Of a stretch of DNA of 41,523 nucleotides, positions 1,675-27,272 are shown one piece after another. How positions within the stretch are numbered: the stretch's first letter is position 1; the number at the start of each line of letters is the position of its first letter. The position numbers and the translations under genes were made by a program. This DNA comes from Lysobacterales bacterium (GTDB lineage Bacteria > Pseudomonadota > Gammaproteobacteria > Xanthomonadales > SZUA-5). The notes beneath the pieces were generated by a model that did no database searches, was not told where the DNA came from, and saw nothing but the letters and a program-made list of their open reading frames with translations. Location of the stretch: assembly GCA_022844135.1 (NCBI GenBank), contig JALHMG010000005.1, positions 155,691-197,213 of the forward strand, in the 5' to 3' direction.

Positions 1675-6136
<4,462 letters not shown>

Positions 6137-6140
<4 letters not shown>

Positions 6141-7408: not shown

Positions 7409-7463
7409 AGGAAACTCCGTTGATCCGTGGAATGGAGAGCCGCACAGCGGCGCGTTCGGTGGA

Positions 7464-7817
7464 TCAGCGGTTCGGTGGGCGGAAGTGACGTTGCAACATT
7501 GGCGCTACTGCCGCAAGCACGTCGAGATTCGGAGGCCCAATGGACGGGAGCTGCAGCAGCTTCGCAACTGGCATCGGAAGCACGGCCATGACCACACCAC
7601 AAGTGTGCCAAGCGTGCGCGAGATCATAGAAAAGGCTACCCAGCCCGGGGGGCTGCGGGGCTTCGTGAACGCATGCGACTACCGCATGTTCGTTGTCGTG
7701 GGTCGGCGCATGACTGCGGGCGATTGCATCAAGCACCGATGTGACGAGCAACAGGGCAACCAAGGCCCACGAGAGGCCTTCTCTGAATCTTCCCGTCCAC
7801 TGTAGAAAACGCCTCAT
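7464..7817 (-). CDS. Small membrane or periplasmic protein at the czcI position
   Basis: A 117-residue protein with a hydrophobic segment at about residues 13-33 (LSWALVALLLVTSVLDAIA). A short region with His and Cys follows (HAPTHDNEHAVVACVHE). Many czcCBA operons carry a small exported protein of this size directly upstream of czcC (CzcI-like), and this gene has that position. I see no firm sequence motif proving the relationship. A metal-sensing or accessory role is inferred from position and from the His/Cys residues. It lies 18 bases after the transglutaminase-DUF3703 gene. Confidence 0.65.
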   Translation of the reverse strand: MRRFLQWTGRFREGLSWALVALLLVTSVLDAIARSHAPTHDNEHAVVACVHEAPQPPGLGSLFYDLAHAWHTCGVVMAVLPMPVAKLLQLPSIGPPNLDVLAAVAPMLQRHFRPPNR

Positions 7818-7835
7818 GCTCGTAAGCTTAGCGGA

Positions 7836-8879
7836 TCATCGGGACATGAGGTCGCGAAGGTCGTCTGGAATGGGCATCGTGCGGAAGGCGCTCACGTTGG
7901 CGCCCCCGGTGTTTCCTTCAGGCACCCAAATCCGGCTGAACATCGCAGCGGCAAGAATCCGGATGCTTTGGCCTGTAAGCTCTCGCCAGTGTCGTTGCCG
8001 CCACGCCCATGCCCACATCCGGAGGTGACTTCGAACGTGTGCGATTGTGTACCGCTGAGACAAGATGTGCGCCCGCTCGAGATGACCAAATGCCGCGATA
8101 GGCTGACCGTCGGTCTCTTTGGCCTCGGCCAGTCGATACTCGGCCTCGATGGCTTCTCCTAACAATCGCGGCATCAACTTTCCTCGTCGAATTGCGGCAA
8201 CACGACGGTTCATCCAGTGACGCACCACCCATTCAAAGAGGAAGCGGCGAATCGGACTGAGCGCCTGCCGGTGACGCGCATATAGATCGTCTGGCATATC
8301 GAAGGTTCCGATCTCCTCGACGATGGCAGTGTGCTGGATGTGTGTATCGCTGCCACGCCATTCTATGGGTGGGTCGTCAAGTCTCGGGGTTGCAATGGCC
8401 AGTCCGCAGAACGCCCCTTGGCATCCCTCATTCGCGGATTGCACGGACGTGAGAAACGGACGGTCGACGACCACACCTTCAAGTCCGATCCAACGAGAGT
8501 CATGTTGGATCTCCACCCAGGTGTGGAGAATTCGCGCCGGCGAGAACGCATAGACCAGTGGGGGAATAACGCCTGCCTGAAGTCGCTTATCCACCCATGC
8601 GGCCTTAAGGCGGCAAAGGTGTCCGGTGGCGCGAAAGAGCGTCATGAGCAAGATCGCCTTCGTGTTGCACTGGCCGTACCCATCCGCAAGGACGACCGAC
8701 GCTTGAAGGTCATCGCGAACGTTGTAGCCGAGCACGATCTCGTCTCGCACGAAATTGTAGACCGCCTTGATCTGCGCCGAACCGTTCAACAAGCGCCATT
8801 GCCTCTTTTCGATTAGGCGCTGGATTTCTGGGTGCCCGACGTCAAGGAGCGGGCTCGCCTGAAGGTATTGGGACATCAT
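7836..8879 (-). CDS. Transglutaminase-like domain fused to DUF3703
   Basis: A 347-residue cytoplasmic-looking protein with two parts. The N-terminal half has the transglutaminase/papain-like triad pattern: C71 in GYGQCNTKA, H119 in ILHTWVEI and an acidic residue near 133-139. The C-terminal part from about residue 225 matches DUF3703 (FGHLERAHILSQRYTIAHV, then PEGNTGGANVS and FRTMPIPDDL), a small family commonly found next to metal-resistance genes. No signal peptide is evident. It lies between the CDF gene (29 bases upstream) and the small membrane protein. Joining of the two domains in one chain is unusual to my knowledge. A peptide-cleaving or crosslinking role tied to metal stress is speculation. 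Confidence 0.8.
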   Translation of the reverse strand: MMSQYLQASPLLDVGHPEIQRLIEKRQWRLLNGSAQIKAVYNFVRDEIVLGYNVRDDLQASVVLADGYGQCNTKAILLMTLFRATGHLCRLKAAWVDKRLQAGVIPPLVYAFSPARILHTWVEIQHDSRWIGLEGVVVDRPFLTSVQSANEGCQGAFCGLAIATPRLDDPPIEWRGSDTHIQHTAIVEEIGTFDMPDDLYARHRQALSPIRRFLFEWVVRHWMNRRVAAIRRGKLMPRLLGEAIEAEYRLAEAKETDGQPIAAFGHLERAHILSQRYTIAHVRSHLRMWAWAWRQRHWRELTGQSIRILAAAMFSRIWVPEGNTGGANVSAFRTMPIPDDLRDLMSR

Positions 8880-14637: not shown

Positions 14638-15939
14638 TCACACGCTACGCCGACGCGATGCGGCCGGCGCGTTGATGGGCGCAACCGAAGCGGCGGATTT
14701 CCGCTGGCTTAAGTAGTCGTCCCACGCCTGCATGAGCTTCGCGCGCTTGGCGAAAAGATCGCCGCGACGGTAGGCGGCTTCGACTTTGTTCTTGACGGTG
14801 TGCGCGAGCGCCATTTCGACAACTTCGCTGCCGAAGCCGGTGGTTTCTGCGGCCCAATCGCGGAAGGAGGAGCGGAAGCCATGAGCGGTGATGCCGGTCT
14901 TTCCTAGATCGCGCTGCAAGAATGCGCGCGGCGATTCGGCGTTGAAGTGCGTGCGCGGTTTGCTCCCAGGCAACACGAAGTCGCTCTCACGCGGTAGTTG
15001 GCGCAACAGCTTCACGGCTCGCGCGCAGAGCGCCACGCGGTGTTCGCGCCCCGCTTTCATGCGCGCAGCGGGAACGGTCCAAACGGCGCCGTCCAGGTCG
15101 AACTCGTCCCACGTTGCGGCCACCAGTTCGCTCACGCGGCATGCGGTGAGGACGATCAATTCAAGCGCGATGGCGCTCAGGCTATTGCGCTCGCGAAGCT
15201 CTGCCATGAAAGCCGGCATGTCCTGCCACGGAATCGCCGCATGGTGTTGCGCTTTGGCGATCTTCGATGGCGCCGGCAACAGCTCGCTCAAATGGCCGTG
15301 CCATCGCGCGGGATTGTCGCCCTTGCGAAAGTGCCGAACCGTGGCCCAATCGAGCACGGCTTCGATGCGCTGGCGAACGCGGCTCGCGGTCTCGGTACGC
15401 GTGCGCCAGATTCGCTCCAGAACCCGCACCACGCTATCGGTTTCAATCTCCCCCACCGGGAGATCGTAAAGCAACGCTGCGTGCGTTTTGAGCGTGTTTC
15501 GCCACTGGTTTACGTGCTTGTCGTTGCGCCAGCCTGCGCGGTGCGCCTCGATGTAGCTTTCGGCGCATTCGCCGAAGGTCAACCGCTTGGCCTTTTCCAG
15601 CGCGAGCGCTTGCTTCTCTTTGGCGCGCTCGGTGAGCGGATCGCGCCCGGCGTGCAGAATTTTGCGCATCTCTAGCGCGAGGTTTCGCGCCTCTTTGAGC
15701 GAAATCGTCGCGACGCTGCCGAGCCCCATATCGATCAGGCGCAACTTCGGTGCGCCGCGCTCGGCATAGCGAAATATCCAGGATCGCCCCGCGTCGCCCG
15801 ACACCCGCAGATAGAGCCCGCCACCATCGGCATGCATGCCCCGCCCCAGGCTTTTGACCTGAACCGGCGCAAGTCGATTCAGCGCCCGTGGACGCTTGCG
15901 CTTGGACGGATCAAGGTCACCGCTTTGCGACGTCGCCAT
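14638..15939 (-). CDS. P4-type tyrosine integrase
   Basis: A 433-residue site-specific recombinase that inserts and excises the element. The N-terminus has the arm-binding DUF4102-like domain (LGRGMHADGGGLYLRVSGDA). A SAM-like core-binding domain follows, and the C-terminal catalytic domain carries the expected residues: Arg in TACRVSELVAAT, HGFRSSFRDW (H-x-x-R), the LAHT histidine, and the tyrosine nucleophile in AAYRRGDLF. It appears intact. The final 24 codons are duplicated at 24641-24714. P4-like integrases usually target tRNA genes, but no tRNA gene is visible in the window, so the attachment site is unknown. Confidence 0.95.
   Translation of the reverse strand: MATSQSGDLDPSKRKRPRALNRLAPVQVKSLGRGMHADGGGLYLRVSGDAGRSWIFRYAERGAPKLRLIDMGLGSVATISLKEARNLALEMRKILHAGRDPLTERAKEKQALALEKAKRLTFGECAESYIEAHRAGWRNDKHVNQWRNTLKTHAALLYDLPVGEIETDSVVRVLERIWRTRTETASRVRQRIEAVLDWATVRHFRKGDNPARWHGHLSELLPAPSKIAKAQHHAAIPWQDMPAFMAELRERNSLSAIALELIVLTACRVSELVAATWDEFDLDGAVWTVPAARMKAGREHRVALCARAVKLLRQLPRESDFVLPGSKPRTHFNAESPRAFLQRDLGKTGITAHGFRSSFRDWAAETTGFGSEVVEMALAHTVKNKVEAAYRRGDLFAKRAKLMQAWDDYLSQRKSAASVAPINAPAASRRRSV
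14668..14741. repeat. 74-bp direct repeat, copy 1 (within integrase 3' end)
   Basis: This stretch encodes KLMQAWDDYLSQRKSAASVA on the minus strand. It recurs in the same orientation at 24641-24714, about 10 kb away, with five mismatches over 74 bases (roughly 93% identity). Most mismatches are synonymous or conservative, so the second copy derives from a closely related integrase gene rather than a recent exact duplication. Confidence 0.9.
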
Positions 15940-16110
15940 GGTTTCGCCCCGGCCTTCCTGCGATATCCGTTACCATATATTTGCAGGCGGTGACGTGCAA
16001 GTGCATACGATGGCTTGCGAGCGATGCGACCCTAACATATTGATTAATATGTCAAATTTCGATGCTTGAAAAATGGCGTGCGATGGCATAAGAGCCAATG
16101 TTCGGCGGAC

Positions 16111-16168
16111 ACCCTCTCCGCCACGAACAGGCCGCCCACCGGGCGGCCTTTTTCGTGGCGGAGAGGGT
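16111..16168. repeat. 58-bp near-perfect hairpin
   Basis: A 17-bp arm at 16111-16127 (ACCCTCTCCGCCACGAA) pairs with 16152-16168. Inside it, GGCCGCCC (16130-16137) pairs with GGGCGGCC (16141-16148) around an ACC loop, and a T5 run follows the inner stem. It can act as an intrinsic terminator on the plus strand, and with the outer arms closed it is a cruciform-prone repeat. Its core (16119-16175, 57 bp) recurs exactly at 16431-16487. Confidence 0.85.
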
Positions 16169-16315
16169 GGGATGAAGAACCCATCGGGTTCGACCCGGAG
16201 GCAGGATGCCGAGAGGGCGCGAGCGAATGCGAGTCCCGAAGGGCGAAGGCGGTTTGCTCGCGCGCCAAAGGCGCGCAACCGCCTGAGCGCCAGGCAGCTA
16301 CGCTGACTGGCCGGA

Positions 16316-16429
16316 CCGCGGGCCATGGGTGAGGACCGGTCGCGCGTAGCGCGAGGCGGCGCATGCGCCGCCAGGGACGAACGCCCGCAAGCTGCGCTTG
16401 CGGGCCGGACTGGCCCGCGCAATCCCACC
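16316..16429. repeat. 114-bp perfect direct repeat, copy 1
   Basis: Identical to 16570-16683 (offset 254). It is dense in small palindromes: GCGCGTAGCGCG, the perfect 18-mer GGCGGCGCATGCGCCGCC, and CCCGCAAG/CTTGCGGG around CTGCG. No convincing gene reads through it in any frame. The segment before it (16176-16315) also holds short hairpins such as GCGCGCCAAAGGCGCGC. Confidence 0.9.
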
Positions 16430-16430
16430 C

Positions 16431-16487
16431 CGCCACGAACAGGCCGCCCACCGGGCGGCCTTTTTCGTGGCGGAGAGGGTGGGATGA
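16431..16487. repeat. 57-bp direct repeat, copy 2 (hairpin)
   Basis: Exact copy of 16119-16175. It contains CGCCACGAA/TTCGTGGCG outer arms and the GGCCGCCC/GGGCGGCC inner stem followed by T5. With the 114-bp repeats it makes two units of the layout hairpin, degenerate spacer, structured repeat. Confidence 0.9.
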
Positions 16488-16569
16488 GTATCCCAACAGG
16501 TTCGACTCGGAGCGCAGGATGCGCGGAGAGCGCGAGCACGACGCGAAGCGGCGCGCGCAGGCCGTCAGG

Positions 16570-16683
16570 CCGCGGGCCATGGGTGAGGACCGGTCGCGCG
16601 TAGCGCGAGGCGGCGCATGCGCCGCCAGGGACGAACGCCCGCAAGCTGCGCTTGCGGGCCGGACTGGCCCGCGCAATCCCACC
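16570..16683. repeat. 114-bp perfect direct repeat, copy 2
   Basis: Exact copy of 16316-16429 with the same palindromes. The ArdC relic begins shortly after it. The whole stretch 15940-16750 holds these repeats, the AT-richer integrase upstream region (with ATATTGATTAATAT near 16039-16052) and no gene I can support. Confidence 0.9.
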
Positions 16684-16750: not shown

Positions 16751-16870
16751 TCGGACTCTACGAATGCAGCGAGCTTTCGGGATTCGGAGAGTTACGCCGC
16801 GACCAAAGCCCATGAGCTGGTGCACTGGACCAGTACGCGGATATGCGGACTCGACCTCACACGGCGCTGC
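16751..16870 (+). pseudogene. ArdC-type antirestriction protein relic
   Basis: After an in-frame stop at 16748, the frame encodes ASFRDSESYAATKAHELVHW followed by TSTRICGLDLTRR. This is the signature zinc-metalloprotease-like segment of ArdC/TraC antirestriction proteins, which normally has YATLAHELxHWT followed by R-L-x-R. The HELVH metal motif is at 16811-16825. The rest of the roughly 300-residue protein is absent: upstream is repeat sequence, and downstream the frame runs into an unrelated protein. It is a remnant of a plasmid or conjugative-element gene. Only about 30 codons are recognisable. Confidence 0.7.
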
Positions 16871-16909
16871 GCGCACGATGGGTCTTTCTGCGTTTGGAGT
16901 TTTGCTGCG

Positions 16910-17665
16910 TTGAGAAACATCTACTGCCGCGGCAGCCGACTATCGTCGCTGTGCCTGCGGATACTGATCGAGCGCTACGTCGCCAGCGATACGGCGACCG
17001 ATGCGCAGCGGCGCATCACCGGCGAAGCGCCGACAACCAACGGTGCGCAGGGCAATCGCCACCGAAATCAGAGCGGCGCGCTTGATAGGCCAGCGACACC
17101 GTTGCTGGAACCTGACGACGAAGAAGCCGACGAGCTGGTCGATAGGTTTCTTTCGATCAACCCCAGCTCATTCACCCAAGTCATGAGCTTCGTACGCGCG
17201 CGCATGCAAGCCTGCCCTGAACGCTACCACCCCATCGCGATCAGCCAGCAAACAGTCAAGGCGTACTTTCTGCGCCTCGGCCGCTACTGCTGGCAGCACG
17301 CCGCCGAGCCGTACCTGGCCGATCAAGCGCGGCGCGTCGTTTTAATGTTCGATGAAATCAACGAAGAGCTTGGCCTGATCGGCGATGACCTCACCGATCT
17401 GCTCGTGCGCAACATCGCCGCGCGCTACGTCAAGCAAGTCAACGGCACACTGTTCAATGATCGCGATGTGCGTCTACGCTACGGCCGCACCATCGAATAC
17501 CTGACCGAGCGCGCGAGGCGATACCAAGGCCTTAGTCTGAACACCAGCCGCGAGCACATGGCCTGGGCGTTCATGCTGAATTCCGTGCAAAACGCGCGCG
17601 GCTTCGACGATCGCAGCTACGGCGCGCGGTATCTGGCGAGCTTGTTGATGAAAAGGCCGATGTAG
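16910..17665 (+). CDS. Unknown helical protein (about 250 aa, start uncertain)
   Basis: The frame is open from the ArdC relic onward. I place the start tentatively at TTG 16910, with GGAG about 12 bases upstream; later starts are possible. The convincing part is a helical protein: DEEADELVDRFLSINPSSF, AISQQTVKAYFLRLGRYCW, RVVLMFDEINEELGLIGDDL and EYLTERARRYQGLSLNTSRE. I recognise no domain. It lies just before the lower-GC nucleotide cassette and has host-like GC, so it is more likely to belong to the old mobile element than to the cassette. Confidence 0.55.
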   Translation: MRNIYCRGSRLSSLCLRILIERYVASDTATDAQRRITGEAPTTNGAQGNRHRNQSGALDRPATPLLEPDDEEADELVDRFLSINPSSFTQVMSFVRARMQACPERYHPIAISQQTVKAYFLRLGRYCWQHAAEPYLADQARRVVLMFDEINEELGLIGDDLTDLLVRNIAARYVKQVNGTLFNDRDVRLRYGRTIEYLTERARRYQGLSLNTSREHMAWAFMLNSVQNARGFDDRSYGARYLASLLMKRPM

Positions 17666-17759: not shown

Positions 17760-18242
17760 ATGAGAGTTTACTTCGCTTGCGGGTTCAAGCACGTGCCGTC
17801 GGACGAAACCGACGCGTATCGTACTCTAGATCTTGGTGCCGCGACTGAGATCAAGGCAATAACTGGTTTTGAAGTGAGGGACCCAATACGAGCAACTCAA
17901 CCGCTCCTCATGAAAGGAGGTCTCCAGAAACGAGCTAAGCGCTGCTACGAGCTTGATCGAAGCATGGTTGATTGGGCGGACGCCATGGTGGCCGAAGTAA
18001 CCTATCCCTCGTTTTGGATAGGTATAGAATTGCAGATGGCCGTCGAAGCTGGTAAGCCGGTGATCGTCGCATCTCGAAGATCTAGGCACAACGCAGATCC
18101 AATATCACTAATGGTCCGCGGATCGCTGGTTGCCGAAATCCCCTACGATGTAGCTTCCGATCTGGCTGACAGCGCGAATAAAATACTTGCGAAGTACGCG
18201 TTTCTGTCTAAGGCTGACCATTTGGCCGAGAAAGCACGCTAG
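17760..18242 (+). CDS. DNPH1-like nucleoside 2-deoxyribosyltransferase-fold N-glycosidase
   Basis: A 160-residue Rossmann-like protein of the NDT superfamily. It begins MRVYFACGF, has ELDRSMVDWADAMVAEVT at residues 64-81, then PSFWIGIELQMAVEAGKPV and a late MVRGS. The pattern closely follows human DNPH1 (RCL), which cleaves the N-glycosidic bond of 2'-deoxynucleoside 5'-monophosphates. The matching catalytic acids are D66 and E90. The predicted reaction is hydrolysis or transfer of the base of a (modified) deoxynucleotide. It is the first gene of a five-gene plus-strand operon, with weak GGAG spacing before the ATG. Fold assignment is strong; the substrate is inferred. Confidence 0.82.
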   Translation: MRVYFACGFKHVPSDETDAYRTLDLGAATEIKAITGFEVRDPIRATQPLLMKGGLQKRAKRCYELDRSMVDWADAMVAEVTYPSFWIGIELQMAVEAGKPVIVASRRSRHNADPISLMVRGSLVAEIPYDVASDLADSANKILAKYAFLSKADHLAEKAR

Positions 18243-18278
18243 CGTCGAGCTAAATAATTGGATGAGGTCGTCGAGCGC

Positions 18279-19220
18279 ATGAACGTCACGGTATCTGGCA
18301 GCTTCCGCCGCCACATGGCCAGCGTCGCGGCCGCAGTTTCGGCTTTCAAGTCTATCGGCGCCGCCGTCCTGTCTCCGTCGGACCCAGAAATCGTTGATCA
18401 GGTGGGTGGCTTCGTGTTCGTCGCTAGCGACAACTATCGAAGCATAAGAGCTGTTCAAGATCGGCATTTCTATGCAATTGAGCATAGTGATTTCCTGTGG
18501 CTGGAGACACCCAATGGTTACGTCGGCAATTCCGCAACACTTGAGATTGGCTTTGCAAAAGCCGTCAAATGCCCCGTCTATTCTAATTGTGGCAACATAT
18601 CGCTCCATGTTCGCGATCTAGTAACGGTCACCCCGTCACTACCGCAAATGCGCGACAGGGTAAAACCATCCAATCGTCGCTTTTTCAGAAATCAACGTAG
18701 TTTTCTCAAGTCAGAGCTAGAAAATTTACTCCTAAGTGGGCGCGGCTTTGTGCATCCCATTTCTTTGGCGCGAGCAGTAACGTTAGCAATGACCGCGTCG
18801 CATGTTCCAACGGTTGAGAATATACCTTCGCCGCCATTTGTAATCCAGGACGCGCCGCTCTCTGACGACGCGATTTGTGAAATCGCTCGCAGTTCATTTG
18901 TCTGGCTTGACCAATTTGACATCGATCCAAGTCCGCACCAGATTCTCCAACTCGGCGCTGCTATTGCGCTTAGGAAGGTGATTTTTGCAGCAAAAAGACC
19001 GCTTGACCTGACATTAAGCGAATATGTACCGCATATGGCATCAACTCGTGACAGAGCAGTAGACGCGTTTATCCAAATCGCTAACATGCGTGATCCCAAA
19101 CCACCATCCGAAACCGCTGAGGTAATCCTCAGCGCATTTGATGCAAGCACTATTCAGAACCCGATGTCTTCAATACAGAAGCTAACATGCCGCCAACCAA
19201 CACAAACGCGACCTCACTGA
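18279..19220 (+). CDS. Double NDT-like domain protein
   Basis: I chose the ATG at 18279 because it starts directly at the first predicted strand (MNVTVSGSF), with GAGG upstream; a TTG at 18258 is the alternative. The protein has 313 residues. Residues 1-105 form an NDT-like domain: AVQDRHFYAIEHSDFLWLET, then GYVGNSATLEIGFAKAV with the expected acid at E89. Residues about 190-245 repeat the pattern in degenerate form (SSFVWLDQFDIDP, then HQILQLGAAIALRKVIFAA) with Q224 in place of the acid. It lies 36 bases after the DNPH1-like gene and overlaps the next gene by 34 bases. It may form mixed oligomers with its neighbours. Enzyme activity is not established. Confidence 0.7.
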   Translation: MNVTVSGSFRRHMASVAAAVSAFKSIGAAVLSPSDPEIVDQVGGFVFVASDNYRSIRAVQDRHFYAIEHSDFLWLETPNGYVGNSATLEIGFAKAVKCPVYSNCGNISLHVRDLVTVTPSLPQMRDRVKPSNRRFFRNQRSFLKSELENLLLSGRGFVHPISLARAVTLAMTASHVPTVENIPSPPFVIQDAPLSDDAICEIARSSFVWLDQFDIDPSPHQILQLGAAIALRKVIFAAKRPLDLTLSEYVPHMASTRDRAVDAFIQIANMRDPKPPSETAEVILSAFDASTIQNPMSSIQKLTCRQPTQTRPH

Positions 19221-20407
19221 TCATTGCTGGAGTGGACGTCCCCGATTCCAGAATCGACGACACAGCGCACATCCTGCGCTCATACGGCCTAGAGGTACAT
19301 ATACCGGCCCGATCTGATGTCGGATGCAACCTTACCAACGGGGCGATCCTCGTGCACCTGCAGCGTTGCGCGGAGCGAAGCGAATTTGTAGTTGAATTGT
19401 CCGGGAAGGACGGTGGCAAAGTTCGATTCGGTAAGCAAGTTGCGGATGTCCGGCACATTAATCAGATATTATCTGAGCGCCTTTCGCTCAGGGAGCCAAA
19501 TTTTACCCGGCGAGCCGTCATAGATATTGGTTCGCAAACCGCGAAGCTCAAGATATTCGACATATTCACGGAAGGCGCTCGACTCTTCCATGAAGAGAAA
19601 TCGTCAACGTCGATAATCGAAGGCGTTCAGAAATATGGTGAAATTTCCCCGATTAACGTTGATTCTCTTTGCAATCTTATTGACACTTGGTTGGCAAAAG
19701 CAAAATCAAAACAGTGTGAGGATATCGCGATTTGCGCTACGGCCGCGTTCAGGAGTGCCAGAAACGCACCCTCAGTGATTGAGCGCGTGCGTTCAGAAAC
19801 CAAATGCCTAATAACAATCCTAGACCAGGAAGCGGAAGCTAGAGCAATACGTGCCGCACTTTCCGATGAGCTTCAGAGAAACGATGCTGTTGCCTTGAAT
19901 CTCGGCGGCGGATCGGTGCAATTGGTCTCGCATGACTCGTCCTTTCTCGTAGACAAGGGCGTCCGATCTATTATCGCGGAGCATCCCTGGCACGAGCCAT
20001 TATCAGATGAATCCTATGGCGCCGTTAAAGGGATGGTGCGCCAGTGGTTTAGCAATGCGAGTCGCGTCCTGCCGCGCTTTACAACGGTGTTTCATACGGG
20101 AGGGGAGCTCCAGTTTTTGCTCAGGACCGATGCGAAGTTGGAAACATGCCTCGACCAGCCCCGACATTTCGCCGAAATATCCGTTCGCGACATGTCTATT
20201 TTTTCCGATAACATGCGAAAAATGCCAATTTCCAGTGTACATTCGTCTTCGCAGCTCGACGGCGCGTGGCTGGCCGGCGCAATCGCTTCAAATGAGATCG
20301 CAATTGCGGCGGCCGAGGCAACTGGTGCTACGCGGCTTATCCCATCTAATATAAACATTACCGACGGCCTTTTATCGGGGAGCGTCCTCAGCTATGTTCG
20401 GATCTGA
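19187..20407 (+). CDS. Ppx/GppA-fold protein with an NDT-like N-terminal domain
   Basis: A 406-residue protein. Residues 1-100 look like another degenerate NDT-like domain (SLIIAGVDVPD, HLQRCAERSEFVVELSG, then GGKVRFGKQVADV) lacking the catalytic acid. Residues about 108-406 are an actin-like Ppx/GppA domain: VIDIGSQTAKL (112-121), ICATAAFRSARNA, DQEAEARAI with E217 conserved, LNLGGGSVQLV (237-247) and a C-terminal TDGLLSG. In active exopolyphosphatases the glycine loop reads DIGGGSTE; here the aspartate is N238 and the glutamate Q245, so metal-dependent hydrolysis may be lost or changed. Such proteins bind polyphosphate or (p)ppGpp. It overlaps the AAA gene by 14 bases. Confidence 0.8.
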   Translation: MPPTNTNATSLIIAGVDVPDSRIDDTAHILRSYGLEVHIPARSDVGCNLTNGAILVHLQRCAERSEFVVELSGKDGGKVRFGKQVADVRHINQILSERLSLREPNFTRRAVIDIGSQTAKLKIFDIFTEGARLFHEEKSSTSIIEGVQKYGEISPINVDSLCNLIDTWLAKAKSKQCEDIAICATAAFRSARNAPSVIERVRSETKCLITILDQEAEARAIRAALSDELQRNDAVALNLGGGSVQLVSHDSSFLVDKGVRSIIAEHPWHEPLSDESYGAVKGMVRQWFSNASRVLPRFTTVFHTGGELQFLLRTDAKLETCLDQPRHFAEISVRDMSIFSDNMRKMPISSVHSSSQLDGAWLAGAIASNEIAIAAAEATGATRLIPSNINITDGLLSGSVLSYVRI

Positions 20408-22382
20408 CGAAACCCTGGACCAAGTACGTTCTCTCCGCAGACGAATAGAGTCACTTGAAGGGGCAGGACTGAGAGAATCTTTGGAGGATTTTCAGTTATT
20501 ATCGCCCGATGGAGCCCTTGTCGGATATACCTACCTCCCAAGAACAGACCAGCACGTTCGCCAATCAATAGCTAGTACTGCAACCTGCCTCAAGGCACGC
20601 GAGCGGATTGAAGGTGTGGGGGCGAACAATAAACTCTACAGTGATTGGCGATCTGTATCAAATAATTGGTTGTCGCGAATCAACGAGCGCTGGTTCGCTT
20701 CGGGAGCAAAGAAAGGAGAGCGGCCAATTGAAGAATCGGACACGTTTACTGTCGCCCATGCACTCCTAGCCTTGAAAATAATGGGTCCGGCCGAATGTAA
20801 TCTGGAGGTCTTACGCGATGAAGGCGCCAAGCGAATTAGCAAGATCCTCGAAGCCAAAAAGAACGACGAGCGGGGCGATCCTGATTCTGGTTACACGAGA
20901 TACCTTCTGGCGCGGTCGCTGAACCAAGATGGCTCTAATGGTGCGCAGAAGGTAAAATTGCGCGAACAGAGTAGTGAGGTTGTAAACCGTCAAATCCGAT
21001 ACGCGGCTAGGAAGCATGAAGAGAGGTTTGAGCCATTCGAGCTGGGTTACCACCTGATCGTTTTGTCAATACTGGGCGAGGACACCAGCAGCCTGACACA
21101 ATCTGCGCTCGGGGCGATATTTGATTCCCAACTGGAACGCGGTGTCTGGGAGAAAAAAGTTCCGGTCGTTTATTTTGAACTAGGCAAGCCAGATGCTTAT
21201 TGTTTTGCTTTCGAGTTTCTGGCGGCACTCTTGACAGAGTATCAAGACAAAGACCGACTGTTCGAATTGCTCCCCTTTGCTAATGGGCTCGAGCGAGCAT
21301 TCAACTGGGCTGAGCGGAATGTGATTATAAGCGGCACGCGCCGCCAATGGTGCGCCAACTACGTCAATCTTATCGGTGTCGATCCTCGCCCAGAGTCCTG
21401 GGCGACGGCTGAGGTTCACCTCTTTCTTCGATGCTATAAGGCATTTTTAGCGAAAGTTGCTTCCCGAGCTTTTGATAGAATGGGTGTTTTGGTCAACCCA
21501 ATTCCGCGAAAGCGGGAAGCGTCGTGCTGGACTTTTGCGAGGTCCGAGGTAGACCTCGAGAATGTGATTTCAACGGTCGCGAAGAGTAGGCACGGATCGG
21601 GGATTTTATTTGGCCCGCCAGGAACAGGTAAGACATTCTTGGTGGGCACTCTGGCAGCTGAGCTCAACTGGCCGCTGGTTACGATTACGCCCGCGGAGTT
21701 CGCCGCACGAGGGATGGATAACGTTGCAAGTGAAGCAGCCAAGTGCTTTCGAGCTTTGGGTGAGCTGGATGAGGCCGTCATTTTATTCGACGAAATGGAT
21801 GTCTTGATTAACGACCGGACGGGCGGTTTCCAGTCGTTTGCGGCGCGTTTCCTTACGAATGCGATGCTACCATTGTTGCAGAATCTCAATGAGCGAAAGC
21901 GATGTATCGTAATTCTTGCGACGAATTTCGCTCGCTCGCTGGATAGTGCGGCAACTCGCGAAGGAAGATTCGATTTCTGCGTCCCGGTTCTTCCCACGCA
22001 CCCTCAATGTAAGCTCGCCCAAGTAGAAGGGCTAGTAGCAGAGGGGAAGTGGACCCACGATCAATTGGATGCGTTCTTGAAAGCGGTTGATGCAAGGAGC
22101 GACCGGTTTCTAGAATCAGTTTGTGATTCGATCGAACGGCTGAAAGAAGCGAACAAGGAATCGAATTACTTTTCAGACGTCAGGATCGAGCTCGCGGACG
22201 CCTATTGGAGGGGCGCGGCATGGCTAGGTTGGCTTCCAAGGTCGAAGTGGGAACCCTTAAAGCGGAGCTCATTTGACGACGAGAGGAGTTTCGATTTTGC
22301 GCACCAAGCGGCGGTGGAGTGCTGCGCCGACTTTCTATTTAACAGAGTTCCAACTAGAATCCCCCAATCTATTAATTTGTGA
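20394..22382 (+). CDS. AAA+ ATPase with a large helical N-terminal domain
   Basis: A 662-residue protein with a good start: GGGGAG about 9 bases before the ATG. Residues about 1-380 are helical with spaced aromatic/leucine repeats (TFTVAHALLALKIMG, GYTRYLLARSLN, FELGYHLIVLSILGED, WATAEVHLFLRCYKAFL), possibly an alpha/alpha toroid; I recognise no named family. Residues 390-560 form a classical AAA+ module: GPPGTGKT (407-414), VILFDEMD with D466/E467, sensor ILATN (507-511) and the arginine-finger region TREGRFD. It resembles FtsH/Cdc48-type remodelling ATPases without the protease. It is probably the effector or remodeller of the cassette, translationally coupled to the Ppx/GppA-like gene. Confidence 0.85.
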   Translation: MFGSDETLDQVRSLRRRIESLEGAGLRESLEDFQLLSPDGALVGYTYLPRTDQHVRQSIASTATCLKARERIEGVGANNKLYSDWRSVSNNWLSRINERWFASGAKKGERPIEESDTFTVAHALLALKIMGPAECNLEVLRDEGAKRISKILEAKKNDERGDPDSGYTRYLLARSLNQDGSNGAQKVKLREQSSEVVNRQIRYAARKHEERFEPFELGYHLIVLSILGEDTSSLTQSALGAIFDSQLERGVWEKKVPVVYFELGKPDAYCFAFEFLAALLTEYQDKDRLFELLPFANGLERAFNWAERNVIISGTRRQWCANYVNLIGVDPRPESWATAEVHLFLRCYKAFLAKVASRAFDRMGVLVNPIPRKREASCWTFARSEVDLENVISTVAKSRHGSGILFGPPGTGKTFLVGTLAAELNWPLVTITPAEFAARGMDNVASEAAKCFRALGELDEAVILFDEMDVLINDRTGGFQSFAARFLTNAMLPLLQNLNERKRCIVILATNFARSLDSAATREGRFDFCVPVLPTHPQCKLAQVEGLVAEGKWTHDQLDAFLKAVDARSDRFLESVCDSIERLKEANKESNYFSDVRIELADAYWRGAAWLGWLPRSKWEPLKRSSFDDERSFDFAHQAAVECCADFLFNRVPTRIPQSINL

Positions 22383-22391
22383 GGTGATATT

Positions 22392-22856
22392 ATGCAAAGA
22401 ACGCTTGTGATATTGAAACCCGACTCGTATGAGCGGCGCCTTTTTGGCCAGATTACAGCAAGGTTTGAAGCCAAGGGCCTGAAGCTCGTCGGTTGCAAGT
22501 TGTCAAAGCTGTCTGAGGATATTTTGGCGGAACATTATGCGCATTTGGCATCGAGACCGTTTTATCCTCGAATTTCGCAGTTCATGAGAAGTCGTCCAGT
22601 TTTGTTGCAAGTTTGGGAGGGCAAAGACGCTGTGGCCGTGGGGCGACTTTTGGCGGGACCTACGAACGGTAGGGAGGCCGCACCAGGTACAATTCGAGGG
22701 GATTTTTCTGTTAGCGTGCAGTGTAATCTACTCCACGCTTCCGACTCAGTTGATGCAGCTGATTCAGAAATTCGCCGATTTTTTCGCGATGAGGAAGTTG
22801 TTGCTCCCGCAAATGAGTTCGATGCATTTCTTTATTCTGGCGACGAAGTTAGTTAA
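22392..22856 (+). CDS. Nucleoside diphosphate kinase, accessory copy
   Basis: A 154-residue NDP kinase, which transfers the gamma-phosphate of NTPs to NDPs through a phospho-histidine. It starts TLVILKPDSYERR with K9. It has R85 in VGRLLAGPTN, REAAPGTIRGDF with R102, and the active-site segment NLLHASDS with N112 and H115. The usual HGSDS glycine is Ala116. All other key residues are present, so it should be active. GAGGTGAT lies directly before the start. It is the last gene of the plus operon. A standard ndk would be expected elsewhere in the genome, so this is a system-specific copy. Confidence 0.9.
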   Translation: MQRTLVILKPDSYERRLFGQITARFEAKGLKLVGCKLSKLSEDILAEHYAHLASRPFYPRISQFMRSRPVLLQVWEGKDAVAVGRLLAGPTNGREAAPGTIRGDFSVSVQCNLLHASDSVDAADSEIRRFFRDEEVVAPANEFDAFLYSGDEVS

Positions 22857-22914: not shown

Positions 22915-23526
22915 CTACTTTGAGAGAGGTAGCAGCTTTCGTGCAACGCGCGCGCGGCCGGAGCAAAAATCGTAAGGTTCTCGCTCAAGTGAGCGGAGCC
23001 AGTCTTTGACCGGCACCCAATTCGCTATCTCACTGGTTGGGATGGCGAGCTGCTTGGTGTTTATCAAGAAGCGAACATCGAAATGCAGGTGAGCTAACTC
23101 AGATTTTTCTTTATCGGCTGGTACTACATGTACATCTATGTCGATCGGAACAGTGTCTATCTGCAGGTGCGCCGGATCGATATGTTGTCCTGTTAACTCG
23201 CAGATCTCTTCTCGGCATTCTCTCTGGCAACCTTCTTGCAGTGTTTCACCAGGGTAAACATGTCCCCCGAGGGGCAGAAGGCCGTGGACTTGGTGGAAAT
23301 GGAGATATATCGCACAGACATCGGCGTCGAACAAAATTGCCGTTGAAGAGAAGTGTGCTGGAGATTTTCGGTCGAAGCACACTCCATTGACCAGGGCTGA
23401 TAACATTTGAAAGCGATAGTTTCGCTCGTTTCGAGTCGGTGGATAGTAACTTGCGAGTGTTCGGAATGCTTTCTGATTCTCGTTGATTGGACATGCTAGT
23501 TCGAATTCTTCGTGCTTTCGCTCCAT
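22915..23526 (-). CDS. NUDIX hydrolase
   Basis: A 203-residue protein from the ATG at 23526. The Nudix box lies at residues 88-110: GHVYPGETLQEGCQ followed by RECREEICE, fitting G-x5-E-x7-REUxEE with the late glycine replaced by C109. The catalytic metal-binding glutamates (E103, E106, E107) are present. It should cleave a nucleoside diphosphate linked to another group. Flanking strands STAILFDADVCAIYLHF and LAHLHFDVRFLI fit MutT/ADP-ribose-pyrophosphatase-like members. Its start overlaps the 3' end of the kinase-like gene by 31 bases. It converges on the NDK gene. The substrate is unknown. Confidence 0.9.
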   Translation of the reverse strand: MERKHEEFELACPINENQKAFRTLASYYPPTRNERNYRFQMLSALVNGVCFDRKSPAHFSSTAILFDADVCAIYLHFHQVHGLLPLGGHVYPGETLQEGCQRECREEICELTGQHIDPAHLQIDTVPIDIDVHVVPADKEKSELAHLHFDVRFLINTKQLAIPTSEIANWVPVKDWLRSLEREPYDFCSGRARVARKLLPLSK

Positions 23527-24194
23527 TTCGCATCTCCAACAAAACACTCTTGAACAAAATCTGCGATTCTGCTTGAGATCAACCGCAGGGCTTGGGAATC
23601 GCCTGAAACTCCCAGGCTCTTCAGGCAACTGTATGAGGCCTGTAGTGATTTGGTTGGTGGCACTGCCGTAGCGGGATCTCCCAGATCTTCGCCGAAGTCT
23701 ACTAAAACGGCGACGGCTCCCCGACACCAAAGGTCTGAAATTAAGTCCACGGGGCGATAACCCATGTCCACCAAGTCAACGACCATACTTGCGGCGCTTA
23801 GCGCGAGGTCGGACGCAAGGCCAGTTCCTTTCGCGGCAGTTAGCTTTGTCGGCAGCCGCTCTTCGAGCAATACGCAGTCCCCGACGGCGTAAAGATGGGG
23901 AGTTGCAATTCCGCGCTCGCTAACTGAACGCCGCCTTTGTAACCATTTCTGAAAACTTGATCGTACAGAGGCAACACCGAAGCCGGGCGTGCAGGCTTTG
24001 AGGATCATCGGCGCTTCTCGTGCACCTTCCACGAGATCGAACTCGTAGACGTAAGTCTCTGCGCCACCTCGGCGCCAGCCTGATCTCAGAGACGTGATTG
24101 ACGCCCGACGCGAGAACCCCAGCCGCTCCATTGCCTCGCCGATTTCATTTACGCCTATGAGATCCCGCAACTCATTTTCCAATGACCAGGCCAT
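23496..24194 (-). CDS. Divergent aminoglycoside-phosphotransferase-like kinase
   Basis: A 232-residue protein with a protein-kinase/APH-like layout: an N-lobe strand with K66 (APMILKAC), a hinge region (PHLYAVGDCVLLEERLP), a catalytic-loop equivalent GYRPVDLISDLW (D150/D154) and a DFG-type metal motif VLVDFGEDLG (D166). It is shorter than normal APH enzymes (about 260-300 residues), and the usual HxD is not clear. A small-molecule or nucleoside kinase is possible, as is a regulatory pseudokinase. It is the first gene of the minus operon and overlaps the NUDIX gene by 31 bases. Weak ribosome-binding site. Confidence 0.6.
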   Translation of the reverse strand: MAWSLENELRDLIGVNEIGEAMERLGFSRRASITSLRSGWRRGGAETYVYEFDLVEGAREAPMILKACTPGFGVASVRSSFQKWLQRRRSVSERGIATPHLYAVGDCVLLEERLPTKLTAAKGTGLASDLALSAASMVVDLVDMGYRPVDLISDLWCRGAVAVLVDFGEDLGDPATAVPPTKSLQASYSCLKSLGVSGDSQALRLISSRIADFVQECFVGDAKWSESTKNSN

Positions 24195-24253: not shown

Positions 24254-24714
24254 TCATTGTATCGCTGGACCGCTCATTCTGGGGTCGTGCTGCAACGTTT
24301 GGCGAGCATGCTCGGGCAACAAGGCGGCTAAACGTTGGACTTTGGCTAGACCGTGTTGCCGGCGCGCGGTTCGTTGCTTGTCGATCTTGGCGCACTCCTG
24401 GATGTGCGCCCAGACCAGCTGATCGCGCTGCAATCGGTCGCGCTGCTGCGCTTGGAGGGCTTCAAGCTCGTTTCTTGCGCGTGTTTGCTTGGACTGGCCG
24501 GTGACCTTGTCCCACAGTCCGCTCCAGCCCTTGCGCAGTCTGGCGGAGCGTAGCTTGGCATCGGCAGCCCAGCGGGCTTCTTGTTGCTGGTGCAGGGCTT
24601 CGCGCTCGGCGCGCTGTTTTTCGATGAGGGTCTTTTTCAGCGCGTTGATCGGCGCAACCGATGCGGCGGATTTCCGCTGGCTCAAGTAATCGTCCCACGC
24701 TTGCATGAGCTTCG
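24254..24714 (-). pseudogene. Chimeric relic: integrase 3' end joined to a MobA/relaxase C-terminus
   Basis: Reading the minus strand, the first 24 codons (24641-24714) repeat the end of the integrase (KLMQAWDDYLSQRKSAASVA). They then run in frame into a charged coiled coil: LIEKQRAEREALHQQQEAR, RSARLRKGWSGLWDKVTGQS, RDRLQRDQLVWAHIQE. The segment with RKGxxGLWDKVTG is typical of the C-terminus of MobA/MobL plasmid relaxases. The nicking domain and most of the integrase are missing, so this is a deletion or recombination scar. It lies upstream of the kinase-NUDIX operon on the same strand and marks the right edge of the foreign cassette. Confidence 0.75.
24641..24714. repeat. 74-bp direct repeat, copy 2
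   Basis: About 93% identical to 14668-14741 and in the same orientation. Homologous recombination between the copies would delete or circularise about 10 kb including the whole nucleotide cassette. Sequence beyond 24714 no longer matches the integrase. Confidence 0.88.
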
Positions 24715-24779
24715 GACGCACTGCAGGCGCAATCCGGTGCTGCGGTATAGTGCCGGTGGGCTTAAAAAGACCAGCAACC

Positions 24780-25082
24780 ATGAAACAGTTCCGCCACGGC
24801 GACGTCATCATTCAACAGGTCGATGCACTGCCTAAGGATCCGGAGCCGTTGCCGCATTTGATCCTGGCGCACGGCGAACTGACGGGTCACGCGCATCGGA
24901 TCGCGCCGGCCAGCGGCGCCAAGCTCTTCCGGAGCGTCAAGGGTTTGTTTCTGGAAGTCGAATCCGAGGGCCTGGCGGTCGTCCACGAAGAGCACGCGAG
25001 CATTGCGCTGCCGCGGGGCATTTATCGTGTGTGGCGGCAGCGCGAGTACAGCCCGGAGGAGATCCGGATTGTTCGGGACTGA
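24780..25082 (+). CDS. Small conserved-type protein paired with an LRR protein
   Basis: A 100-residue protein from the ATG at 24780 (MKQFRHGDVIIQQVDALPKD). It reads as a compact beta-rich domain: LILAHGELTGHAHRIAP, FLEVESEGLAVVHEEHASIA, then IYRVWRQREYSPEEIR. I recall this pattern as a family of unknown function encoded next to DUF6745 leucine-rich-repeat proteins, and that is the case here: the LRR gene starts 14 bases before this stop. Several histidines (HGELTGHAH, HEEH) could bind a metal. No function assigned. Confidence 0.75.
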   Translation: MKQFRHGDVIIQQVDALPKDPEPLPHLILAHGELTGHAHRIAPASGAKLFRSVKGLFLEVESEGLAVVHEEHASIALPRGIYRVWRQREYSPEEIRIVRD

Positions 25083-25959
25083 CACGGGTCGCGGCGCGAA
25101 GATCGAGCTGCGCGATTGTTCGCAGCCGCTGCCGGCGAAACTGCGCTGCTTCGATCTCGACCTTACCGGCTACCAGCTCGATCGTCTGCCCGACGATCTG
25201 CACGTCGAGAGCCGTTTGATCCTGGACAATGCAACGCGCCTGCGTTCGCTACCGGCGAACCTCAAAGTCGGTTCCTTGAGCTTGCGCAATTGCGCCGTTC
25301 TCGACGCCTTGCCCGAAGGCCTTGAATGCTGGTTTCTGGACATGACCGGCTGCGAGCAGTTCAGCCGCTGGCCGCAGCGTGCGAACATCAGCACCGGCTC
25401 GGTGATCTTGCGGGATTGCAGGAGCCTTGCTTATTTGCCGCCATGGCTGACGCGCCTCGCGAATCTGGACCTGGCCGGCTGTCTGCAACTTCAGCAGCTC
25501 CCGCCCGATTTGATGCTGACCGGCTGGCTGGACCTCGCCGGTACCGCTATCGCCGCTTTGCCGCCGCATCTGGCCGATACGCGCTTGCGCTGGCGCGGGG
25601 TTCGGATCGATCGACGCATCGCCTTCGAGCCCGCGAGCATCTCTGCTATGGAGGCGCTCAGAGAACCCAACGCGGAATTGCGCCGGGTGATGATCGAGCG
25701 CATGGGTGCGCTTGAATTCGCCCAGCAGGCGAACGCTCAGGTACTCGATGAGGACACCGACGCGGGCGGGCGCCGGCGGCTTCTGCATATCCCGTTAGAG
25801 CAAGATGAGCCGCTCGTTGGCCTCAATTGTCGCTGCCCATCCACTGGGCGCGAGTACTTGCTGCGCGTGCCGCCGAAGACCAAGACCTGCCACCAAGCCG
25901 CGGCGTGGATCGCCGGATTCGACGACCCTCGCGACTACCACCCCGACTACGAAACTTGA
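25069..25959 (+). CDS. Leucine-rich-repeat protein with DUF6745-type C-terminus
   Basis: I place the start at TTG 25069, which follows GGAGGAG by 7 bases and overlaps the upstream stop; 296 residues. Residues about 15-175 are short leucine-rich repeats (CFDLDLTGYQLDRLPDDL, SLSLRNCAVLDALPEGL, LDLAGCLQLQQLPPDL). The C-terminus (RRVMIERMGALEFAQQA, DTDAGGRRRLLHIPLE, CRCPSTGREYLLRVPP, TCHQAAAWIAGF) matches DUF6745. LRRs suggest protein binding, with no enzyme motif. Translationally coupled to the 100-residue protein. Function of the pair is unknown to me. Confidence 0.8.
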   Translation: MFGTDTGRGAKIELRDCSQPLPAKLRCFDLDLTGYQLDRLPDDLHVESRLILDNATRLRSLPANLKVGSLSLRNCAVLDALPEGLECWFLDMTGCEQFSRWPQRANISTGSVILRDCRSLAYLPPWLTRLANLDLAGCLQLQQLPPDLMLTGWLDLAGTAIAALPPHLADTRLRWRGVRIDRRIAFEPASISAMEALREPNAELRRVMIERMGALEFAQQANAQVLDEDTDAGGRRRLLHIPLEQDEPLVGLNCRCPSTGREYLLRVPPKTKTCHQAAAWIAGFDDPRDYHPDYET

Positions 25960-26093
25960 GCCGCAGTGGGCGATCATGGCCAGAATCCGCCAAGAACGAA
26001 TGTGGCCATGATGACGCATCCCTCCGCCTCCCGGATAACCGCGAGGCGCAGGGGCTGGACCAACGCCAATCACCATTGATCGACGGAACCACC

Positions 26094-27272
26094 ATGATCG
26101 AACGCAAGCTGATTTACATGGATGCCAAATCCAGCAAGTTCTGGAACATTCGCCAGGACGGCGAGGCATTCACCGTGACTTATGGTCGTATCGGCACGTC
26201 GGGGCAGGAAACGGTCAAGACCTTTGCCAGCGAAGCCTTGGCGGTCAAAGAGGCCGAGAAGCTCATCAAAGAGAAGCTGGGCAAGGGTTATGTGGAAGCC
26301 TCGGCGCCGCCAGCGGAGGGCGCCCTTCCGCTCGCGGCATTCGCCAATATCAATCAACGCGACGATTTGTTCCGCAACGCCGGCACGTTCGTCGGGATGC
26401 GCGTGGTCGACTACGCGATGGACAAGCCGGCGCGCAGCGATGTGGCGTATCGATTTCGCAGCGACTGGGACGACGACCAGATCGTCCCTGCGCTTGAGCA
26501 CTTTCTGGCAACACCTGCTGCACTGGAAGCGACGGCGATCGTCATCGGCGCCTGGTTCGGCGACGAGTCGTCCAACACCCCGGACGAGGTGTTGGACGTG
26601 CTCATCCAAAACCGCGCCCGCGTGCCGAAGTTGACGGCGCTTTTCGTGGGCGATGTGACCAGCGAAGAGAACGAGATGTCGTGGATCACGCAAACCGATA
26701 TGGCGCCGCTGCTGACGGCGTTCCCGGATTTGCAGTTGCTACGCACGCGCGGCGGCACCGACCTTAAACTGACGCCGCTCAAGCACACGAATCTGCGCGC
26801 CCTGGCCATGGAAACCGGCGGCATGGATGCCAGCGTAGTGCGCAGCGTCTGCAGTTCCGACTTCGAGCGGCTCGAGCATCTGGAACTGTGGCTGGGCACG
26901 GACGAATACGGTGCCACCGTGCGCGTCGAGGACCTACAACCATTGTTATCCGGCAAACTGTTTCCGAACCTCAAGTACCTCGGCCTTCGCAACAGCCAGA
27001 TCGCCGACCAGATCGCCGTTGTTGTCGTCAACAGCCCGCTGGTGCAGCGACTCGAAACCCTGGACTTGTCGCTCGGCACGCTCAGCGACGAGGGCGGTGA
27101 GGCCTTGCTGCACCTCAAGGACAGCCAGCTCAAGAAACTTAACTTGCACTATCACTATATGTCGCCGGAGATGGTCAAGCGCCTTCGAGCCCTGCCCTTC
27201 CCGGTTGATGCGACAACGCCGCCGGATATGGAAGTCGACGAGGAGGACCGCTTTGTCGCGGTCGGGGAGTAG
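26094..27272 (+). CDS. WGR-domain protein with STM4015-type leucine-rich repeats
   Basis: A 392-residue protein from the ATG at 26094 (ACGGA upstream). Residues about 5-72 are a WGR domain (KLIYMDAKSSKFWNIRQDG, VTYGRIGTSGQETVKTF, AEKLIKEKLGKGY), a small nucleic-acid-associated fold also found in PARPs and MolR. The rest matches the STM4015 LRR family (VPKLTALFVGDVTSEENE, LQLLRTRGGTDLKL, YLGLRNSQIADQIAVV, KKLNLHYHYMSPEMVKRL). No enzymatic site. It follows the DUF6745 gene by 134 bases in the same direction. It may be an adaptor that senses DNA or protein damage, but this is inference. Confidence 0.85.
   Translation: MIERKLIYMDAKSSKFWNIRQDGEAFTVTYGRIGTSGQETVKTFASEALAVKEAEKLIKEKLGKGYVEASAPPAEGALPLAAFANINQRDDLFRNAGTFVGMRVVDYAMDKPARSDVAYRFRSDWDDDQIVPALEHFLATPAALEATAIVIGAWFGDESSNTPDEVLDVLIQNRARVPKLTALFVGDVTSEENEMSWITQTDMAPLLTAFPDLQLLRTRGGTDLKLTPLKHTNLRALAMETGGMDASVVRSVCSSDFERLEHLELWLGTDEYGATVRVEDLQPLLSGKLFPNLKYLGLRNSQIADQIAVVVVNSPLVQRLETLDLSLGTLSDEGGEALLHLKDSQLKKLNLHYHYMSPEMVKRLRALPFPVDATTPPDMEVDEEDRFVAVGE

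Follow-up and report, generated by a model that had tools for sequence, protein, structure and literature searches.

Human DNPH1, which has been termed a nucleotide pool sanitiser, uses D80 as the acid, E104 as the nucleophile and S98 and S128′ as phosphate serines, and its base-reading residues R30 and H56 are reported to be conserved (PMC10603095, whose numbering is used here). DNPH1 is a homodimer and hydrolyses hmdUMP. In MilB, the F17Y substitution switches the enzyme from CMP to dCMP, the 5-hydroxymethyl group is read through the positive residue at position 23, and R23K is described as the mildest mutant for the hydrolysis of hmCMP (PMC4081090). DmtZ of the Z-phages, a member of the NDT superfamily, acts on a dNMP; it is joined to a dUTPase domain, has a Tyr-Asn-Glu triad and works for the base change of the phage itself (PMC12884076). 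Retron operons, a defence setting, include NDT-like genes (PMC12548924), and NDT domains are fused to AbiJ-NTD1 (PMC3710099).

We analysed a window of 41,523 nucleotides, that is, the whole stretch from positions 155,691 to 197,213 of contig JALHMG010000005.1 of a Lysobacterales bacterium (GCA_022844135.1). Five plus-strand genes in this window, encoding a DNPH1-like protein, an NDT-like protein, a Ppx/GppA fusion, an AAA+ ATPase and a nucleoside diphosphate kinase (NDK), form an operon in which neighbouring genes overlap or are at most 36 nt apart (Table 1). The first of them, P0001, was read from an ATG start to a TAG stop and encodes 160 amino acid residues, at the same coordinates as in the earlier reading; the opposite strand, in its own frame, was interrupted by stops.

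Table 1. Features of the operon and of the island that carries it (window coordinates)
Feature	Position	Strand	Basis
P0001 (NDT1), DNPH1/MilB-like, candidate dNMP N-glycosidase, NDT superfamily	17760..18242	+	sequence, fold model, conserved residues
NDT2, N-terminal NDT-like domain, Asp61 and Glu89 kept, Tyr absent	18279..19220	+	3-sequence alignment A4
PPXF, N-terminal stretch of about 100 aa and Ppx/GppA phosphatase domain	19187..20407	+	PF02541 4.3e-18; exopolyphosphatase structures
AAA+ ATPase with long N-terminal region	20394..22382	+	PF00004 7e-23
Nucleoside diphosphate kinase (NDK)	22392..22856	+	PF00334 3.6e-45
Nudix hydrolase, convergent with the operon	22915..23526	-	PF00293 1.1e-6
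ORF of 232 aa, no family match, kinase-like by eye	23496..24194	-	Pfam, PADLOC and NCBIfam scans empty
Tyrosine integrase, left island end	14638..15939	-	PF22022, PF13356, PF00589
Left direct repeat, 80 nt, inside the integrase gene (3′ end); may be an att end	14667..14746	.	repeat search
Right direct repeat, 91% identical to the left, 9973 nt away	24640..24719	.	repeat search

The original prediction had likened P0001 to human DNPH1, and phmmer, profile, Foldseek and VIA searches all agreed with this. Thirteen sequences of solved structures matched in phmmer at E ≤ 1, of which 12 were Rcl/DNPH1 (E 7e-6 to 0.0057), with rat Rcl at 7e-6 and the human DNPH1 entries at 0.001 to 0.006; the remaining match was a TIR protein (E 0.047). 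The profile of 25 sequences gave an E-value of 1.7e-6 for the similarity to Rcl/DNPH1, which exceeds chance. The score of P0001 against Pfam PF05014 (Nuc_deoxyrib_tr) was 21.2 bits, under the curated gathering cut-off of 28.8, and the NCBIfam scan yielded no match; despite the sub-threshold PF05014 score, the predicted fold supports membership in the superfamily.

The AlphaFold2 model of P0001, built from 24 sequences, had a mean pLDDT of 86.5 and a pTM of 0.84. Foldseek with this model retrieved 114 chains at E ≤ 0.001, among them human DNPH1 (8rpt), MilB and a cyanobacterial NDT with E-values of 8e-7, 1e-6 and 1.5e-6, respectively. In VIA, the model was aligned with MilB 4jem (Z 16.0, 2.6 Å, 140 residues), DNPH1 8rpt (Z 15.9, 2.4 Å, 138 residues), the Enterococcus structure 7m5h (Z 15.5) and BlsM (Z 14.8). 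The fold of P0001 is confidently predicted to be of the DNPH1/MilB type, and the previous assignment as an NDT-type protein is in line with the NDT-superfamily fold of the model.

D66 and E90, placed at the catalytic positions in the original prediction, were indeed paired with the Asp and Glu of DNPH1, and the spacings D66–S84 (18) and D66–E90 (24) are the same as those of D80–S98 and D80–E104 in the human enzyme. The phmmer alignment with Rcl/DNPH1 had no gaps across residues 62–108 and placed S84 on S98 and S116 on S128′. By this alignment, the counterpart of Ser128′ is S116 in ISLMVRG and not the serine of MVRGS; S84 and Y4 are further DNPH1-equivalent residues that the earlier reading did not list. 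The VIA ranges, in which residue 1 of the P0001 model corresponds to DNPH1 21 and MilB 14, gave an offset from which positions were derived by range and not by residue-level superposition. By this offset, Y4 corresponds to DNPH1 Y24 and MilB F17, K10 corresponds to DNPH1 R30 and MilB R23, and F9-K10 corresponds to MilB F22-R23.

Alignment A2 consisted of 25 rows (P0001 and the loci L011–L031, L003, L005 and L033), leaving out the partial L032 and the duplicates or near duplicates L004, L006, L034 and L035. Y4, H11, V12, P13, D66, S84, G88, E90, M118 and G121 were identical in 25 of 25 rows, and position 116 was S or T throughout (18 S and 7 T). F9, K10, D41, P42 and R120 were private to P0001 among these rows, and a loop of about 20 residues found in the relatives was absent from it. 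The pair F9-K10 is private to the window protein because 24 of the 24 aligned relatives carry L9-T10, and D41-P42 may fall near the DNPH1 element with the base-reading His56 and the catalytic-cycle Glu55, where the alignment is uncertain.

In its predicted fold, its Tyr/Asp/Glu triad and the serines that match S98 and S128, P0001 resembles DNPH1/Rcl, and it looks able to work like DNPH1. It differs in having about 20–24% identity to these proteins, in lacking the base-reading Arg30 (K10 by offset) and in having no recognisable H56/E55 element, H56 being without an evident counterpart in this uncertain part of the alignment; its gene also belongs to an operon, which lies on an island of a bacterial genome. 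Because Arg30 is replaced, P0001 was not filed as DNPH1. With MilB and BlsM it has in common the fold and, by offset, F9-K10 at F22-R23, whereas MilB has F17 in place of Y4, and the proteins scanned showed no antibiotic pathway. P0001 is probably a deoxynucleoside-monophosphate N-glycosidase, as far as the model indicates. Since Y4 occupies the site of MilB F17, P0001 should prefer deoxyribose, and this preference is predicted from Y4. As a positive residue at the place of MilB R23, K10 is a point for the reading of a hydroxymethyl group, whereas L9-T10 in the aligned relatives is a point against it; P0001 could, but need not, recognise a hydroxymethyl pyrimidine. As an enzyme P0001 is an ordinary member of the superfamily, and as a system component it is unusual.

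The other operon products were compared with protein families and with genes on plasmids. NDT2, for which an alternative TTG start exists at position 18258, had no Pfam or NCBIfam match. Its relatives in a tblastn search of plasmids were a Miltoncostaea and a Nostoc plasmid gene, which matched PF05014 weakly (0.0046 and 0.028), and D61 and E89 were identical in the three sequences of A4. The C-terminal half of NDT2 is perhaps a second, degenerate NDT-like domain. A comparison of the two halves as an internal repeat gave weak support (probability 7.5%). The N-terminal stretch of PPXF, which had been guessed by eye to be NDT-like, was not supported as such and had no match in plasmids. The AAA+ protein matched IetA in PADLOC (3.5e-13), and in NCBIfam CDC48 (1.7e-15) scored better than IteA (1.8e-11), with no NCBIfam model over its cut-off; the IetA match is therefore not specific. 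The histidine of the NxxH stretch of NDK aligned with that of an NDK3. The operon NDK and Ppx/GppA look extra, because a second copy of each is present elsewhere in the genome and both of these score better. Promoter scanning of the window found 4 candidates versus 4.8 expected from shuffles, and terminator scanning found 13 versus 8.9 in shuffles (sd 3.4).

NDT2 and Ppx genes are neighbours twice, because a Nostoc plasmid (L010, 6947–8418) repeats the arrangement of the window: a Ppx/GppA gene (PF02541 3.7e-12) comes about 200 nt after the NDT2 relative, and its product aligned with PPXF at 27%. The neighbour gene of the Miltoncostaea relative was not a Ppx. A Parabacteroides relative of the AAA+ protein (L007, 4379–9665) lies between ThyX and the HIT, PRA-PH and DHFR genes, and a Rhizobium relative (L008, 5609–8379) overlaps a DUF4406 gene, which we take to be NDT-like, about 4 kb from Ku genes. 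The AAA relatives at the two loci examined keep the company of nucleotide-metabolism genes.

Ten proteins around P0001 were scanned with PADLOC (2023), and as a set they matched no system. For the AAA+ protein, the models matched were IetA and TRIP13, followed by weaker ones; matches of the Nudix protein and of the WGR protein were weak, and the other seven gave nothing, including P0001, NDT2, PPXF and NDK. The operon resembles RADAR and IetAS in having an AAA+ ATPase with partners, the IetA match being non-specific, but the adenosine deaminase partner of RADAR and the subtilase of IetAS were both absent among the ten proteins; IetS, the partner of IetA, is a subtilase. Retrons likewise have an NDT-like gene in a defence setting and differ in their reverse transcriptase, none of which was found among the ten proteins. 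Kongming and defence by dCTP deaminase are other known systems.

The integrase and the direct repeats fit the ends of an integrated element. The right copy was the sole other match of the 80-nt repeat in the genome (E 0.001), and the GC content was 0.513 in the operon versus 0.62 in the flanks; the five-gene operon looks mobile. No empty site of the island was found; among the eight genomes that represent the rest of the family, two encode a relative of the right-flank protein and none has one of the left-flank ORF. No tRNA was found in the window, and no known defence gene stood beside the operon among the proteins scanned. Between the integrase and the operon (16105–16683), direct repeats of two families, one of 114 nt (100% identical) and one of 96 nt (89%), were accompanied by GC-rich palindromes. 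Just right of the island, the region 25827–27272 encodes a WGR domain with leucine-rich repeats, and the ORF at 25003–25959 also looked leucine-rich by eye. Farther left, the minus strand of 1675–7408 carries an RND efflux set consisting of an AcrB-type pump, a membrane fusion protein and an outer membrane efflux protein.

A second copy of the operon was not found in the searches of genomes, plasmids, phages and viral contigs, in which 2 of the 747 plasmid records matching the whole AAA protein were examined. P0001, the N-terminal region of AAA and profile A2 each matched 1 of 398 genomes of the phylum, NDT2 matched 1 of 369 genomes of the class and PPXF matched 1 of 9 genomes of the family, in each case the genome of origin; profile A4 matched 2 of 398, where the match besides its own was to a short NDT-like gene in a 13-kb stretch (L041) without operon partners. 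The 398-genome sets appear to be one draw, so these results are not independent. P0001 and NDT2 had no match among phages, and AAA, NDT2 and P0001 singly had none in viral contigs, where A4 matched another short NDT-like gene without operon partners (L038). In plasmids, the N-terminal region of AAA had no match, the Nostoc Ppx matched its own record alone, and PPXF gave partial Ppx matches in 17 records.

Genes similar to P0001 itself were found in 78 of 72,556 plasmid records and in 0 of 50,697 phage records (tblastn, E 1e-5). The pattern query A1, made of P0001 and three plasmid relatives and biased to YaaC pairs in that three of its four rows are YaaC-paired, found 22 loci in 84,980 species genomes and 3 in viral contigs, and a wider query found 6 viral loci, namely the 3 earlier contigs and 3 new ones, two of which had the same gene map. 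The best identity to P0001 was 42% over about 100 residues (L012, L020 and L054); L032 reached 55%, over 42 residues only. Of the 22 genome loci, 19 had YaaC directly upstream of the relative, overlapping it or at most 20 nt away; L017 had another partner, and L021 and L032 were at contig ends. YaaC was also present in all six distinct viral contigs, a set that includes two similar ones, and in the four plasmid loci examined; L004 and L031 are one record. YaaC was called by Pfam (PF14175) in L003 and L005 and by blastp to the L005 protein in the others. The relatives of P0001 form a separate two-gene module with YaaC. At the window locus, no ORF of the window matched the YaaC query, and the upstream ORF (16820–17665) had no Pfam match. 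In L017 (8009–9540), an upstream dCTP-deaminase-like (DCD-like) gene replaces YaaC and overlaps the start of the relative, a pairing that may be compared with the dUTPase domain of DmtZ; its product matched PF22769 (1.6e-26) and deaminase structures (E 6e-19) and, by eye, has a hydrophobic C-terminal stretch. PADLOC has no models for YaaC, its DNPH1-like partner or the DCD-like gene of L017.

A model of YaaC (L034, 6961–8001) was built from 21 sequences with a pLDDT of 86.7. Foldseek gave nothing significant (best E 0.19; HEPN proteins 2.0 and 2.4). In VIA, the HEPN protein 2hsb ranked first with a Z of 10.8 (2.6 Å, 119 of 126 residues), followed by HEPN 1wol at 7.8, three ANT(4″) rows at 5.5–5.6 and then 4.4, and a Z below about 13 can reflect a common helical-bundle arrangement. 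Because the aligned range was 44–336, an insert would interrupt a HEPN-like bundle in YaaC. The R-x4-6-H pattern, which we took as the HEPN motif, was not seen among the invariant columns of the YaaC alignment. On the basis of the model, YaaC is tentatively regarded as HEPN-like. The word YaaC does not occur in the available main text of the 2013 HEPN survey (PMC3710099); our literature search found no function for YaaC and no related paper linking it with deoxyribosyltransferase, and YaaC was absent among the HEPN/phage-defence matches listed.

Of 5,426 complete E. coli genomes, 109 matched the YaaC pair, 106 of them over at least 80% of its length, and plasmids accounted for 109 of the 112 places. 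Between mat and lxc, phage P1 (NC_005856) carries res and mod, the restriction-modification genes of EcoP1I; two P1-like plasmids of E. coli (L005 and L006, both 6961–8510) have the YaaC pair between the equivalents of mat and lxc-ulx. This slot is empty in phage RCS47, is occupied in 673R5 by several genes, one of them of the RelA/SpoT family, and contains two hypothetical genes in a P1 isolate whose label gives res and mod as deleted.

The 130 ORFs flanking 21 loci were scanned with PADLOC, and the best 25 of 326 families included GajA, GajB, HamB and REase_I with two matches each, as raw counts without a control set and with many families overlapping. Pfam matches of the same ORFs comprised helicases and restriction subunits and also ordinary metabolic families. 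Ten flank proteins were scanned singly, of which four matched at 1e-20 or better and six had no match: GajA (2e-227) and GajB of Gabija are directly downstream of the pair in L027, and HamB (E 0) in L028 and a type I REase (4e-242) in L018 are within 2 kb of it. Eight further proteins gave a TniQ model in L011 (1.7e-25), a candidate model in L012 (4e-15) and weak helicase-type or REase_III matches for large ORFs of L025, L029, L030 and L017, and two of the eight gave none. On a Bradyrhizobium plasmid (L003, 9897–11603), genes annotated as patatin-like and Mov34/MPN/PAD-1 are 6 kb from the YaaC pair; such genes occur in CBASS. On a viral contig (L054, 2402–5993), two genes upstream of the pair, with one ORF between, resemble AbiE on visual inspection. 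The settings of the P0001 relatives point to conflict with phages. Because these relatives ride phages and plasmids in places of anti-virus genes, P0001 is a candidate component of a defence that works through nucleotides.

Weighing these results, we lean slightly towards P0001 being a retaining dNMP N-glycosidase in a mobile, most likely anti-phage five-gene operon. The enzyme class proposed in the original prediction was upheld by the predicted fold and residues, and the link to phages that accompanied it is suggested by genomic context. We infer the anti-phage role together with the activity, the substrate, the dimer and the cooperation of the five products. In the proposed mechanism, E90 would attack C1′ of the deoxyribose while D66 would protonate the leaving base; Y4 would hold E90 and disfavour a 2′-OH, S84 and S116 of the partner subunit in a dimer would grip the 5′-phosphate, and water would release deoxyribose 5-phosphate from the enzyme. 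During infection, the operon would remove or alter deoxynucleotides and in this way act against the phage. In the simplest scheme, NDT1 would cleave dNMPs that derive from degraded host DNA or are made by the phage, so that the phage could not recharge them, NDT2 and AAA would sense or gate, and PPXF and NDK would move phosphates, either of a signal or of the pool. It would be bolder to assume that bases are exchanged, as by DmtZ (PMC12884076), and that NDK then produces an unusual dNTP.

The operon may instead shield the host from damaged or unwanted nucleotides by means of its DNPH1-like, Nudix and NDK functions, with no role against phages. The sanitising role ascribed to human DNPH1 (PMC10603095), the Nudix gene that adjoins the operon and the metabolic setting of the Parabacteroides AAA relative would suit such house-cleaning; we nevertheless consider it unlikely in view of the low-GC island with its integrase, the relatives that are found on phage-plasmids and close to defence genes, and the patchy spread, the gene occurring in just one of 398 genomes sampled from the phylum, namely the one it came from. 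It is quite improbable that the DNPH1-like enzyme exchanges the base on a dNMP and that kinases including NDK then produce an unusual dNTP, a signal or poison read by NDT2, PPXF or AAA. An NDK is indeed part of the same operon, DmtZ is reported to hydrolyse dAMP and transfer deoxyribose 5-phosphate to another base, proteins of the Gordonia phages Ghobes, a source of DmtZ (PMC12884076), and Archimedes appeared in the viral fold search, and ITP and dITP are the products of RADAR, which has an AAA+ partner (PMC9994260), but no gene for special-base synthesis was seen among the proteins scanned, and the nearest structures, DNPH1 and MilB, are hydrolases. Very unlikely is that the NDT domains act as NADases of a TIR-like kind or, by depleting dNMPs, as a suicide toxin, restrained by partner proteins and released on infection, as might be suggested by the NDT-like genes of retrons (PMC12548924), the AbiJ-NTD1 fusions (PMC3710099), the distant similarity of DUF4062 TIR-like NADases to NDT (PMC13174449) and the lack of Tyr in NDT2, NADase TIRs usually having Phe or Ala there (PMC11204291), because the Tyr of P0001, though not covering NDT2, goes with 2′-deoxy specificity and disfavours NAD as its substrate (PMC11204291, PMC4081090).

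Taking P0001 again as a candidate dNMP N-glycosidase of a probable defence operon, the literature search found no description of a DNPH1-like dNMP glycosidase as a defence among the matches listed and nothing on NDT, Ppx and AAA together; the available main text of DefensePredictor has none of the terms YaaC, deoxyribosyltransferase, Ppx, nucleoside and DNPH1. It is conceivable, if rather doubtful, that the locus represents an undescribed anti-phage system, in which a dNMP N-glycosidase or transglycosylase, an NDT-like sensor, a Ppx/GppA phosphatase and the extra NDK would produce or police an unusual deoxynucleotide on which the AAA+ protein would act; in a sister system, the enzyme family would be paired with YaaC, which would be a HEPN protein not recognised so far and would form a defence cassette in P1-like phages. 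The removal or alteration of nucleotides is a known route to stopping phages. The YaaC pair would be easy to test, being present in more than 100 sequenced E. coli and nearly always plasmid-borne. If the proposal is true, the family of the human enzyme DNPH1, a drug target, would be tied to bacterial immunity, YaaC would gain a role, and there would be a testable link between the base modification of phages and the counter-measures of their hosts.
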